Assembly: GCA_014240455.1 (NCBI GenBank)
Contig: JAAZWY010000002.1
Span: 38,209-74,802, forward strand
Length of the DNA stretch: 36,594 bases
Direction of reading: 5' to 3'
DNA from: Nanobdellota archaeon
GTDB lineage: Archaea; Nanobdellota; Nanobdellia; UBA10117; ARS21
Part shown: positions 21,229-26,420 of the stretch, in pieces
Layout of the letters: every line of letters starts with the position of its first letter
How positions within the stretch are numbered: position 1 is the first letter of the stretch
Notes under the pieces: model-generated
What the model was told of the DNA's origin: nothing
The model's input: the letters and a program-made list of their open reading frames with translations, nothing else
The model's database searches: none
Position numbers and translations under genes: made by a program

Positions 21229-22302
21229 TTATATGGTCTCCAAACCAAGTTCGTGGTTCATTTCTAAGGCTTGTGGTGATGGTCGTGCTCTTCCTTTTCC
21301 AAGGACGTACGGAGACTTTACTCCAGTTATGATTGTCATAATCCGAAGTTTTCCTCTCATTTCATCATCAATTCTTGCTCCCCAGATGACATTTGCATCT
21401 GCGTCAAGTCCTGCCGTTATGATTTCACCAACTCGCTCGGCTTCATCAAGAGTCATGTCTGGTCCACCTGTAATGTGGATCATTGCTCCTGTTGAACCAT
21501 CGTAGCTTACATCCAACAATGGGTTGGATAATGCTCGTTTAGTTGCTTCATCAACTCGTTTATCACCATCTGCTTCTCCAATTCCTGTTACTGAAACTCC
21601 GCCAGAAGACATAATTGCTCTTACGTCTGCGTAGTCTAAGTTAATCAAGGATGGTACTGAAATGATTTCTACAATACTCTTAATCATTGTTGAAATTAAT
21701 TCGTTTGCGACAGCGAATGCTTGTCTAATAGGTAAATTTCCTGCAATTGAAGATAATCGATTGTTGTCGATTACAATTACTGTATTGGAAACTTCTCTTA
21801 ATTGCTTAAGTGCGAATTCAGCTTTGTCGATTCTTGCCTTTTCAATACTGAATGGCATTGTGACTACACCAATTACAATTGCGCCTTGTTCTTGTGCAAC
21901 TTGTGCAGCTACTGGTGCTACTCCGCTTCCAGTTCCTCCACCAAGTCCAGCACAAACAAAAACCATGTCTGCACCTTGAATTGCGGCTTTCAATTCGTGA
22001 ATTTGTTCTCGAGCGGATTGTGCTCCAATATCTGGGTTACCTCCTGCTCCAAGTCCACGTGTAGTGTCTCGTCCAATTAGAATCTTTTTGTCAGCTTCTC
22101 TATGATCTAAATGTAGCTTGTCAGTGTTTACAGAAATAACTTCAGCTCCACTAATACCTTTTCGGTATAGCCAGTCAGCCATGTTGTTACCTGCGCCACC
22201 GCAGCCTAATACTTTTATATTTGCTTGTCCAATATTTGAGTCAACAGTAGTATCGGTCGATGTCTCCATCGTGTCCAATGCGTTTTGTACAAGGAAATCC
22301 AT
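21229..22302 (-). CDS. ftsZ: Cell division protein FtsZ
   Basis: The 357-residue tubulin-like GTPase forms the division ring. GCGGAGNN (33-40) binds nucleotide, the tubulin signature GGGTGSG is at 121-127, and the T7 loop [11 protein letters not shown] supplies the catalytic Asp. A short acidic C-terminal tail (NHELGLETI) could be a partner-binding peptide. It has a leader of about 25 nt, with a GGAG that could pair with 16S rRNA about 12 nt before the ATG. One copy only is seen here. Confidence 0.97.
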
Positions 22303-22488
22303 TTCTTTCTTTCTCCGAGGTCAATAGCATTAATTTGCCTTTGACTTGTTTTAAAAATGGAACATTTAATTTAAAAGGGATTATATGTTGGACCATACAG
22401 GTTCCGAGTTTTTATTTTTGAAAACGAGTTACATGGTTGAAGTTTTGTAATTGTATGTTCCAGAATATAGTTTTCACTTTCGGATTAA
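22303..22488. other. 186-nt gap between ftsZ and the nitroreductase gene
   Basis: It holds the ftsZ promoter (minus-strand TTTTTAAAAC near 22347-22357) and leader. It has three scattered GGAACA/TGTTCC-like words (near 22359, 22399 and 22458) but no convincing palindrome or gene. Confidence 0.5.
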
Positions 22489-23163
22489 TCACTTAAAATG
22501 CTTTATGGTCTTTCCAATCTTTTTGATTAACTTGTGTCTTGTCTTTTTTGATCGTTGTTTGGCTCGCCTGATCGTGTTTTGTAACTTAGGATTGCTTGCA
22601 AGTGGAATCATCTTTGAAGATTTGTTTGATTCGCCCCATGCCTCATAGTAAACCAAATCTGTTGCTTGAATTTCTGGAAGTTTCTTTGGATGCTCATCTG
22701 GTTTTCCAAGTGCTACAAGTGCATGAACATTTACTTTATCCATCTTACCCGGTTTCTTAGACAAAACTTTTCTTACTTCTGATTCAGAAAATGCTCCAAC
22801 CCACGTTCCTTGTAATCCATATTCTTGTGCTGCGATAAGTATATTTTGTATAATCGCTGAGGAATTTTGTATTGCATATATTTCTCCTCGAGCGCCATAT
22901 AATTGAGTTAGTCTTTTTGGATTTGAACAAACCGCAATAATTACAGGTGCGTTTTCAATCCAATCTTGATCAACACACGCATCCTTTAGTTTTGTTTTTA
23001 GTTTGTCTGATTCTACTAACACCATCCAAGTACTTGGCACATTTCCGGCTCTTGGTGCACTAACTCCTGCTTCGAAAATATCAAATAATACTCGGTAGGG
23101 AATTGTACTTTTTTTGAACTTTCTAATTGAGCGTCGGCCAAAGATTGCCTCGAGAATATCCAT
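22489..23163 (-). CDS. Nitroreductase-family flavoprotein with basic tail
   Basis: The 224-residue protein opens with AIFGRRSIRKFKKSTIP, the FMN-binding nitroreductase start, followed by ISAP-like VSAPRAGNVPSTWMVLV and AAQEYGLQGTWVGAF. The family reduces nitro groups, quinones or flavins with NAD(P)H. The last ~45 residues are an unusually basic extension (RRAKQRSKKTRHKLIKKIGK), not part of the fold and possibly for nucleic-acid or membrane binding. TATA at 23183-23192 is 24 nt from the ATG. Confidence 0.9.
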   Translation of the reverse strand: MDILEAIFGRRSIRKFKKSTIPYRVLFDIFEAGVSAPRAGNVPSTWMVLVESDKLKTKLKDACVDQDWIENAPVIIAVCSNPKRLTQLYGARGEIYAIQNSSAIIQNILIAAQEYGLQGTWVGAFSESEVRKVLSKKPGKMDKVNVHALVALGKPDEHPKKLPEIQATDLVYYEAWGESNKSSKMIPLASNPKLQNTIRRAKQRSKKTRHKLIKKIGKTIKHFK

Positions 23164-23238: not shown

Positions 23239-24924
23239 ATGGAATATTCCAAACTAGTGGAGATATATGAGGCTCTATCTGGAACTAGTAAATTGCTTGA
23301 AAAACGGGCAATAATTGCTGGATTTCTGAAAGGTTTGAATTCTGAAGAAGTTGAATCTGCAGTTTTGTTACTTGAAGGTCGGCTTTTCCCTGAATGGGAT
23401 CGACGAAAGATTGGTATCGGAACTCAGACTGTTATTAAATCAATTTCAACAAGCTCAGGTAAAAGTGAGGATTTAATTAAAGCTGACTGGGCTAAAATTG
23501 GTGATTTGGGTCTTGTTGCTGAACGTAATATTTCTTCCAAAACTCAATCTACTTTGTTTTCTGGCAAATTGACAATTGATCAAGTTTTTACAAATCTTCG
23601 TAAGCTTTCTGAAATTGAAGGTGGTGGAAGTACTGGAAAGAAAATTGGTTTGATCGCCGAGTTACTTAGTGCTTCAAGTGGTGTTGGTGCAAAATATATT
23701 GTTCGGACTTGTCTTGAAGATTTGAGAACTGGTGCGGGTTTTGGAGTTTTGCGTGATTCAATCGCTTCAGCATTTGATGTTGAAGTAGCTAATGTTCAAA
23801 CTGCTTATGATTTGACTACTGATATTTCTAGTGTTGCAAAAATTGCTAAGACTAAGAGTAATGAGGGGCTGTTAGCTTTGGAATTGTCCGTTGGAAATCC
23901 TGTGAAAGTAATGTTGTTTAAGAAATCAGAATCTATCGAAGAAGGGTTTGATGTTGTAGGTAAACCTGCGGCAATTGATTACAAATATGATGGGTTCAGA
24001 CTTCAAATTCATCGTTCGGGAAAAGAGATTAAATTATTTACTCGAAACTTGGAAGATGTTACTTCTCAGTTTCCAGATATTGTAAAGATGATTGAGAAAG
24101 ATGTTAACTCTAAAGAATTTATTATTGATTGTGAAGTAATTGGTTATGATAAAAAAACTGGTAAGTGGAAACCTTTCCAAGATATTTCCCAGCGAATTAA
24201 ACGTAAATATGAAATTGAAGAAATGATTAAAGAAGTTCCAGTTATGATTATTGTATTTGATATTATTAATTTAGACGGAGAGAATTTAATCTCAATGCCG
24301 TTTGGTGAACGACGTGATAAACTTTCTAAAGTTATTAGAGAAGATCCTTTGGCAGTTAGTTTAGCTAAGGAAATTGTAACTGATTCTGTTGAAAAAGGTA
24401 AAGAATTCTATGCTAAGGCGTTATCTGATGGTGCGGAAGGAGTTATGATGAAGAAACTTGACAGTGTGTATAAACCTGGTTCTCGAGTAGGGTATGGAAT
24501 TAAAATCAAACCAGTTATGGAAACTTTGGATTTGGTTGTTGTTGGATCTGAATGGGGAACTGGGAAACGTTCAAAGTGGTTAAGTAGTTTTATTCTTGCA
24601 TGTCGTGACGGTAATGACTTCAAAGAGATTGGAAAAATGGGTACTGGATTCAAAGAGAAGGATGAGGAAGGAGTTAGTTTTGGTAAAATGACTGAATTGT
24701 TAAAACCACTGGTTGTTAGTGAGTCTGGTCGAGAAGTGAGAGTTAAGCCGGGAGTTATAATTGAGGTTAAGTATGAGGAGATACAAAAATCTACTAACTA
24801 TGATTCTGGTTTTGCTTTGCGTTTCCCTCGTTTTGTTAGATTGAGAGATGATAAAGGTCTGAAAGATGTTGATGATTTGAAGCGTGTTTCAAAACTTGCT
24901 AAGAGTCAGAGAAGTCGTGGATAA
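23239..24924 (+). CDS. lig: ATP-dependent DNA ligase
   Basis: The 561-residue ligase seals nicks during replication and repair. The adenylated Lys is K249 in DYKYDGFRLQIH. Other motifs are FIIDCEVIG (III), EGVMMKK (IV) and YGIKIKP (V). An N-terminal DNA-binding domain (~1-215) and C-terminal OB fold are both present, as usual for archaeal LigI. TTTTATT centred 25 nt before the ATG implies a leaderless mRNA. Confidence 0.97.
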   Translation: MEYSKLVEIYEALSGTSKLLEKRAIIAGFLKGLNSEEVESAVLLLEGRLFPEWDRRKIGIGTQTVIKSISTSSGKSEDLIKADWAKIGDLGLVAERNISSKTQSTLFSGKLTIDQVFTNLRKLSEIEGGGSTGKKIGLIAELLSASSGVGAKYIVRTCLEDLRTGAGFGVLRDSIASAFDVEVANVQTAYDLTTDISSVAKIAKTKSNEGLLALELSVGNPVKVMLFKKSESIEEGFDVVGKPAAIDYKYDGFRLQIHRSGKEIKLFTRNLEDVTSQFPDIVKMIEKDVNSKEFIIDCEVIGYDKKTGKWKPFQDISQRIKRKYEIEEMIKEVPVMIIVFDIINLDGENLISMPFGERRDKLSKVIREDPLAVSLAKEIVTDSVEKGKEFYAKALSDGAEGVMMKKLDSVYKPGSRVGYGIKIKPVMETLDLVVVGSEWGTGKRSKWLSSFILACRDGNDFKEIGKMGTGFKEKDEEGVSFGKMTELLKPLVVSESGREVRVKPGVIIEVKYEEIQKSTNYDSGFALRFPRFVRLRDDKGLKDVDDLKRVSKLAKSQRSRG

Positions 24925-24940
24925 TTTGGAACAGTTTTTA

Positions 24941-24980
24941 GTTTTTGGAACAATGTTTCAAAAACATGTTCAGTTTTTGA
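24941..24980. promoter_or_regulatory. Two overlapping palindromes (candidate operators)
   Basis: Palindrome 1 (24941-24965, 25 bp) has arms GTTTTTGGAACA and TGTTTCAAAAAC, with a single arm mismatch. Palindrome 2 (24958-24980) has arms TCAAAAAC and GTTTTTGA around a 7-bp spacer and shares one arm with the first. GTTTTTA at 24934 and GGAACA at 24928 extend the pattern outward. This is typical of a dimeric HTH protein binding several adjacent sites. Confidence 0.75.
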
Positions 24981-24997
24981 TATGGTGTTCCTTTCAG

Positions 24998-25021
24998 GAA
25001 ACGCTTTTATAGTTGCGTTTC
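24998..25021 (+). promoter_or_regulatory. TATA box bracketed by a perfect inverted repeat
   Basis: Arms GAAACGC (24998-25004) and GCGTTTC (25015-25021) flank a 10-bp spacer that begins with TTTTATA (25005-25011), the TATA box centred 25 nt before ATG 25033. A protein on this repeat would compete directly with TBP, so autorepression is the simple reading. Confidence 0.75.
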
Positions 25022-25032
25022 AATTATAGAAC

Positions 25033-25604: not shown

Positions 25605-26420
25605 ATGATAATTAACGAGGAATTCTTGAATAGATTACGACGTTCGTTTGGTTTGAATCTTTATGAGGTAAAACTTTGGGCTGCAATTCTTTCAAGAGGA
25701 GTTTCTACGGCAGGAGAACTTAGTGACATTGCGGATGTTCCTCGTTCGCGAACTTATGATGTTCTTGAGAGTCTTGAACGGAAAGGATTTGTTATTGTAA
25801 AACCGGAAAAGCCGATTAAGTATATGGCAATTCCACCACTCGAAGTTCTTGATCGAGTTCATGGAAAGATTCGGGCGGATTTGATTAATCATTCTGAAAG
25901 AATAACTAAACTAAAGGACTCTGAGATGATGGCTGAATTGGGAAACCTACACAAGCAAGGTATTGAGCCAATGCAAGTTACTGATTTTTCTGGAGCTTTG
26001 AAAGGTCGACACAATATTTATGATCAATTAAGTTATGTTTTGAAAGAGGCACGAGCTAGCATTGACTTGGTTACTTCTGAAGAAGGATTAGGCCGTAAAA
26101 TTAGGATGCTTAAACCTCTTATTGAGCGTGCAGTTTCTCGCGGTGTTAAAATTCGAGTTGTTGCTCCTTCGAGTAATGTTGAATTAACGGAAATTATGAA
26201 CGGTTTTGGAGAATTAGTAGAATTTAGAAATAATCCTAACTTGCGTGGAAGATTTTGTGTAGTTGACAAGAAACATATTGTTTTCATGTTGACTGATGAT
26301 GAAGAAGTTCATCCTTCCTATGACATGGGATTCTGGGTAAAGTCTCCTTACTTTGCCGGAACTTTGAATAAAATGTTTGACAAAACTTGGGGCGCTGAAT
26401 TAAGCCCTGACTCCGAATGA
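25605..26420 (+). CDS. TrmB-family transcriptional regulator
   Basis: The 271-residue protein opens with FLNRLRRSFGLNLYEVKLWAAIL and IADVPRSRTYDVLESLERKGFV, the TrmB winged helix. The C-terminal part (LVTSEEGLGRKIRMLKPLIERAVSRGVKIRVVAP) is the TrmB effector domain with its phospholipase-D-like fold, which in Thermococcales binds sugars. No transporter lies nearby, so the target is unclear. Its 3' end overlaps the convergent protease gene by 21 nt. Confidence 0.88.
   Translation: MIINEEFLNRLRRSFGLNLYEVKLWAAILSRGVSTAGELSDIADVPRSRTYDVLESLERKGFVIVKPEKPIKYMAIPPLEVLDRVHGKIRADLINHSERITKLKDSEMMAELGNLHKQGIEPMQVTDFSGALKGRHNIYDQLSYVLKEARASIDLVTSEEGLGRKIRMLKPLIERAVSRGVKIRVVAPSSNVELTEIMNGFGELVEFRNNPNLRGRFCVVDKKHIVFMLTDDEEVHPSYDMGFWVKSPYFAGTLNKMFDKTWGAELSPDSE

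Follow-up and report, generated by a model that had tools for sequence, protein, structure and literature searches.

An unnamed winged-HTH regulator of Nanobdellota archaea with a probable class-wide operator array and a probable site at ftsZ

The 36,594-nucleotide stretch of a Nanobdellota archaeon genome that we analysed (the window) encodes an unnamed 173-aa protein in which a winged helix-turn-helix (HTH) domain is joined to a domain with weak resemblance to a degenerate nucleotidyltransferase fold. In our reading, to which we assign a probability of nearly 0.8, this protein autoregulates through an array of operators in its own promoter and, in the order to which the organism belongs, represses ftsZ. 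The array and the ftsZ site would together probably constitute a division-linked genetic switch. The comparative evidence shows that the array is conserved, that residue 31 of the protein covaries with the operator, that the gene is linked to ftsZ and that the ftsZ promoter carries a matching site. Autoregulating winged-HTH repressors are a known kind of system. In the literature searched, which lacked most subscription papers, we found no account of the family of the 173-aa regulator, of its operator code or of a DPANN regulator tied to ftsZ, nor any of how ftsZ is regulated in DPANN archaea. Gene regulation in DPANN is almost unexplored experimentally, and here sequence alone yields a regulator, the probable target ftsZ and an operator code in which a single residue of the protein probably sets specificity. 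As proteins that differ at Arg31 are predicted to prefer different half-sites, the claim is open to in-vitro tests that need no culture of the organism, which makes division control in ultra-small archaea directly testable.

Operator array of the regulator promoter

The original prediction described four nested repeats in the 94-bp promoter stretch, and all are present with the spacing given: a 25-bp palindrome at 24941-24965 (12-bp arms with one mismatch and a 1-nt centre), a second inverted repeat (24958-24965/24973-24980), a GTTCC/GGAAAC pair at 24987-25002, and the repeat GAAACGC (24998-25004)/GCGTTTC (25015-25021), whose 10-bp spacer begins with TTTTATA at 25005. The density of repeats, thought to be unusual, is so with respect to the number of good pairings: seven arm pairings with a score of at least 7, partly overlapping, are found in the 94 bp, and none of 1000 shuffles reached that number. 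The best lone palindrome, however, is unremarkable: a score of at least 9 was reached by 9 of 1000 shuffles and also by 5 of the roughly 780 real stretches of 94 bp examined. Comparative parsing resolved the region into conserved dyads of GRAAC half-sites, here D2, D3, D4 and D5 (Table 1), in a register that differs from the one first proposed, in which D5 had been overlooked as a unit. The palindrome that was believed to bracket the TATA box could not be retained as a single operator, as one of its arms is the inner half of D4 and the other that of D5, a separate dyad. The inverted repeat at 24958-24980 is mostly incidental and falls outside the conserved register. The degenerate D3 has a counterpart in the congener L002 (GTTCA-GTATTT-GAAAT), and the geometry of D5 is that of the ftsZ operators. 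TATA boxes were assigned by eye.

Table 1. Coordinates of the regulator, its predicted operators and the neighbouring genes in the window
Feature	Position	Strand	Remarks
Linked ftsZ, probable target	21229..22302	-	
ftsZ operator GTTCC-ATTTTT-AAAAC	22348..22363	-	Just past the ftsZ TATA region; R1 match 22347-22372; aligned in relatives
Weaker second operator-like match TTTTTATTTTTGAAAACGAGTTAC, upstream of ftsZ	22408..22431	+	PWM score 13.2
Nitroreductase-family gene	22489..23163	-	Conserved cluster member; family named from sequence inspection
ATP-dependent DNA ligase gene	23239..24924	+	Conserved upstream neighbour; family named from sequence inspection
Distal isolated half-site GGAAC	24928..24932	+	From sequence; precedes the D2 half-site by 19 bp; position shared with congener L002
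Dyad D2, GGAAC-AAT-GTTTC (N3)	24947-24959, within palindrome 24941..24965		R1 matches 24933-24964, 24942-24964
Dyad D3, GTTCA-GTTTTT-GATAT (degenerate N6)	24968..24983		Class-wide array register; R1 match 24968-25011
Dyad D4, GTTCC-TTTCAG-GAAAC (N6)	24987..25002		Inner half over BRE position; most conserved unit of the class
Regulator-promoter TATA box TTTTATA	25005..25011	+	From sequence; aligns with relatives' TTTATATA
Dyad D5, GTTTC-AATTAT-AGAAC (N6), between TATA and ATG	25017..25032		Conserved in all four family genomes
Regulator gene, 173 aa	25033..25554	+	N-terminal winged HTH, C-terminal degenerate nucleotidyltransferase-like domain
TrmB-family regulator gene	25605..26420	+	Downstream neighbour conserved in the order

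Upstream of the orthologues the array follows the consensus RTTYC-N6-GRAAC-N3-GTTYC-N6-GRAA, after which comes the TATA box. Its half-sites are alternately inverted and spaced 8 and 11 bp apart, giving 19 bp per pair, and an additional 19-bp unit is present in some of the promoters. In most orthologue promoters the array lies about 65-72 bp ahead of the start codon, and its register and spacing are kept whatever gene lies upstream (the ligase, a divergent nitroreductase or others). The original prediction would have been refuted had the arms not been conserved ahead of the orthologous genes; a template of four half-sites was significant (p ≤ 0.05 against the shuffles of that same promoter) in 69 of 73 orthologue promoters (94.5%). 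Perfect matches to GRAAC-N3-GTTYC-N6-GRAAC in 56 related genomes were all located at the orthologue promoter, and the three best matches of R1, an operator model built from sequence only, in the window's genome fall within the 94-bp stretch. The array very probably provides the landing sites for the adjacently encoded protein, for which no binding data exist.

The regulator protein and its distribution

The expectation that the downstream gene encodes a winged-HTH protein was confirmed by Pfam, in which the HTH_IclR (PF09339; 34.9 bits, cut-off 22) and TrmB-type (PF01978; 28.2 bits, cut-off 25.6) models both scored above their cut-offs; PF01978 was matched by 23 of 24 orthologues at E ≤ 0.01. 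MarR domains remained below the curated cut-offs (23.7 bits with a cut-off of 27, and 19.9 bits with a cut-off of 24.6). The C-terminal Regulator_TrmB/sugar-binding domain of TrmB (PF11495) had no match in the regulator at E ≤ 0.1, nor was the IclR effector-binding domain matched in Pfam, the C-terminal part being only ~100 aa long. The HTH is the only part recognised in Pfam and NCBIfam, and a fold search with the full regulator returned HTH matches only. The predicted fold of the C-terminal domain (pLDDT 84) weakly resembles minimal nucleotidyltransferases and MNT antitoxins, with weak top Foldseek matches to 1ylq (E 0.034, TMq 0.50), 5yep, 6m6w and 8xeo. The catalytic GS...DxD motif is not conserved; the orthologue consensus reads ILxGxxxxxxAxILxIG and contains no DxD.

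The regulator is single-copy in the window's genome. All 18 sampled genomes of its order have an orthologue, as do 87 of the 378 genomes sampled from the class. In a sample of 194 genomes taken across the phylum, 68 carried one, and each of these belongs to the same class. The genomes that carry them are labelled Nanoarchaeota, Woesearchaeota, Pacearchaeota or unassigned DPANN MAGs, and a few bear other archaeal labels. Several genomes of the class also encode short HTH-only paralogues of ~85-100 aa (G229:C2:8524-8805, G021:C2:10451 and G236:C1:474742), at least one of which has its own operator array (the first, with an operator-model match at G229:C2:8454-8497). One genome scored as lacking the regulator has a strong operator-model match 2.3 kb from ftsZ (G040:C32:16268-16305) and may contain a diverged orthologue that fell below the threshold.

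Control of the regulator gene and of ftsZ

In the proposed mechanism, dimers of the regulator would bind the alternately oriented GRAAC half-sites of its own promoter. There the last half-site of the upstream array falls on the BRE, and the window's family has an additional dyad, D5, in the interval from TATA to the start codon. The occupied sites would exclude TBP, TFB and RNA polymerase, so that the regulator gene would be repressed. In the order, the regulator would also bind the dyad just past the TATA of the linked ftsZ and repress this gene. Repression would presumably be released by a signal sensed by the C-terminal nucleotidyltransferase-like domain, whose role as a sensor is an inference. 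That some sites cover the BRE and others fall between TATA and the ATG suggests that the regulator represses by keeping TFB/TBP and polymerase off the promoter, but in the absence of binding or expression data, physical binding, dimer formation, repression, the direction of control and the signal or ligand are all inferred. Autoregulation is well supported because the arms are conserved upstream of orthologues and residue 31 covaries with the operator (see below). This part of the originally predicted cooperative autorepression stands, and a steric block of TBP/TFB by the dyads that flank TATA is plausible; repression itself, like the cooperativity predicted with it, can only be inferred.

The most serious alternative, though still an unlikely one, is that of a dual regulator, in which the upstream array recruits TBP/TFB for auto-activation and the dyads downstream of TATA repress. 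Archaeal activators also bind sites immediately upstream of the BRE, so auto-activation by the upstream array is possible, and the array does lie directly upstream of and into the BRE throughout the class, whereas at the regulator gene a downstream dyad of the D5 type can be clearly made out in the window's family alone. However, competition with TFB is indicated by the innermost half-site, which is positioned on the BRE and whose outer base (position 34) varies together with Arg31.

Control of ftsZ rests on gene linkage and on a putative site, neither of which was part of the original prediction. Of 75 genomes of the class, 62 have the regulator gene no more than 10 kb from one of their ftsZ copies. 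Common arrangements are a tandem one, with the regulator 160-1100 bp ahead of ftsZ (24 cases), and a divergent one, in which the distance is mostly ~1 kb (23 cases). In the order, promoters of the linked ftsZ contain the dyad GTTYC-N6-RAAC a few bp past a TATA-like box (15 aligned promoters). We compared absolute dyad scores instead of relying on the shuffle test because 8 of 30 ftsZ promoters from regulator-lacking genomes were nominally significant in the latter. A score of at least 11 was reached by 13 of 16 linked ftsZ promoters of the order and by 3 of 30 from regulator-lacking genomes (Mann-Whitney p = 2e-6 for the scores of the two groups), by none of the 16 promoters of the second ftsZ paralogue in genomes of the order, and by none of the 32 promoters of linked ftsZ genes in regulator-positive genomes outside it. 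A class-wide ftsZ operator was thus sought but not found outside the order. The ftsZ site is therefore order-specific, and the self-operator is class-wide. Without a recognisable site, control of ftsZ outside the order would occur by co-transcription or would not exist.

This absence leaves some room for a regulator that controls only itself, with the ftsZ site of the order being real but belonging to another factor or forming a promoter element. We consider this less probable than dual action, since the ftsZ dyads of the order match the regulator's own, are the best or near-best non-self matches genome-wide in several genomes (the best in several of them), and are missing at the second ftsZ.

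The identity of the protein that binds the array was addressed by covariation in 65 protein/operator pairs, in which 173 protein columns were compared. Column 31, located in the HTH, is Arg in 44 proteins and Lys, Gln, Ser or another residue in 21. At least two of the four outer half-site positions are G/C for 42 of the 44 Arg31 proteins and for 1 of the 21 others (Fisher p = 1.6e-13; 1.5e-4 for the next-best column; relatedness ignored). The DNA positions that change most are 19G, 0G, 15C, 16A and 34C, and all four symmetric outer positions are among them. Inner G/C positions do not change with residue 31 and the base composition of the loci is equal, so composition is not a confounder. Residue 31 changed about eight times on the tree, and of four independent pairs on supported branches, on average 3.9 were concordant and none discordant; with only four pairs the sign test (p = 0.125) is incapable of reaching 0.05. 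Arg31 is a probable specificity residue, and its covariation, the strongest evidence available, strongly implies that the array is bound by this protein rather than by some other one, although the evidence is comparative and no binding assay supports it.

The palindromes could in principle be sites of a different protein such as the downstream TrmB-family regulator, whose gene adjoins in the order and whose family is established to bind palindromes that adjoin or overlie the BRE/TATA, as they do at the 173-aa regulator. This is improbable, since the array is kept outside the order where no adjacent TrmB gene was found (in flanks of 1-1.5 kb) and the operator sequence covaries with a residue of the 173-aa protein. 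It can be dismissed that the repeats are A/T-rich palindromes due to chance or that they terminate the upstream ligase gene: lone palindromes of such strength do arise by chance and the region does follow the ligase stop codon (24922-24924), but members of the class maintain the spacing and the register regardless of the upstream gene, and nearly all of the promoters beat their own shuffles.

Known systems, neighbouring genes and further sites

CdrS and CdrL of haloarchaea are ribbon-helix-helix regulators of the cdrS-ftsZ2 locus (PMC7439475, PMC8406309), and CdrS has been reported from all major archaeal groups except DPANN (PMC7439475). Like CdrS, the 173-aa protein is a small transcription regulator that is encoded beside ftsZ and apparently directed at ftsZ expression. 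However, it is a winged-HTH protein (according to Pfam and the predicted model) with a C-terminal nucleotidyltransferase-like domain, and the geometry of its sites suggests repression, whereas CdrS activates ftsZ2. CdrS is its closest functional analogue, but the two proteins are unrelated. The bolder proposal that this uncharacterised family is the missing division regulator of DPANN, sensing a cell-state signal and coupling ftsZ, perhaps together with the S-layer gene, to growth through a self-limiting class-wide array, is tentative, and we would not yet put it at even odds.

Several regularly spaced operators in one promoter, similar to the array described here, are reportedly also found in the Lrp-type archaeal autoregulator Ss-LrpB, which belongs to an unrelated protein family and has a different operator. 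The MNT fold (1ylq; MntA antitoxins 6m6w/8xeo) provides the best though weak likeness to the C-terminal domain (Foldseek E 0.03), which differs from MNT proteins in its non-conserved catalytic motif and its fusion to an HTH. The IclR family (PF09339) shares the N-terminal HTH, without its effector-binding domain being present in the regulator. With the TrmB family (PF01978; PMC4158304) the relationship is likewise confined to the HTH, the C-terminal sugar-binding/PLD-like domain being missing.

Genomes across the order share, whole or in part, the arrangement GatD - ftsZ - nitroreductase - DNA ligase - regulator - TrmB-family gene. The TrmB-family gene, with a PLD-like C-terminal part, follows the regulator gene through most of the order, and the operator type described here was not found ahead of it. 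In some members of the class (loci L019, L020, L022 and L085) the nitroreductase and regulator genes are transcribed divergently and have the intergenic array in common.

A large regulon was not supported: the 13-bp pattern occurred 17 times with at most one mismatch, compared with 9 times for the reversed control, and a further site (C11:122576) lies inside an ORF and was taken as chance. Only the regulator's own promoter, ftsZ and possibly an S-layer gene (PF05124) stand out as sites. In three genomes of the family, the S-layer gene has GTTCC-N6-GGAA upstream of a TATA-like box, and GGAAC-TAT-GTTCT-like sites occur downstream in two; these putative operators are no more than suggestive of a third target. 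The operator-like dyads that flank the S-layer promoter are located at G000:C23:4763-4789 (L207:1764-1790) and L207:1862-1877, and the upstream one is kept in two relatives, L319 and L321.
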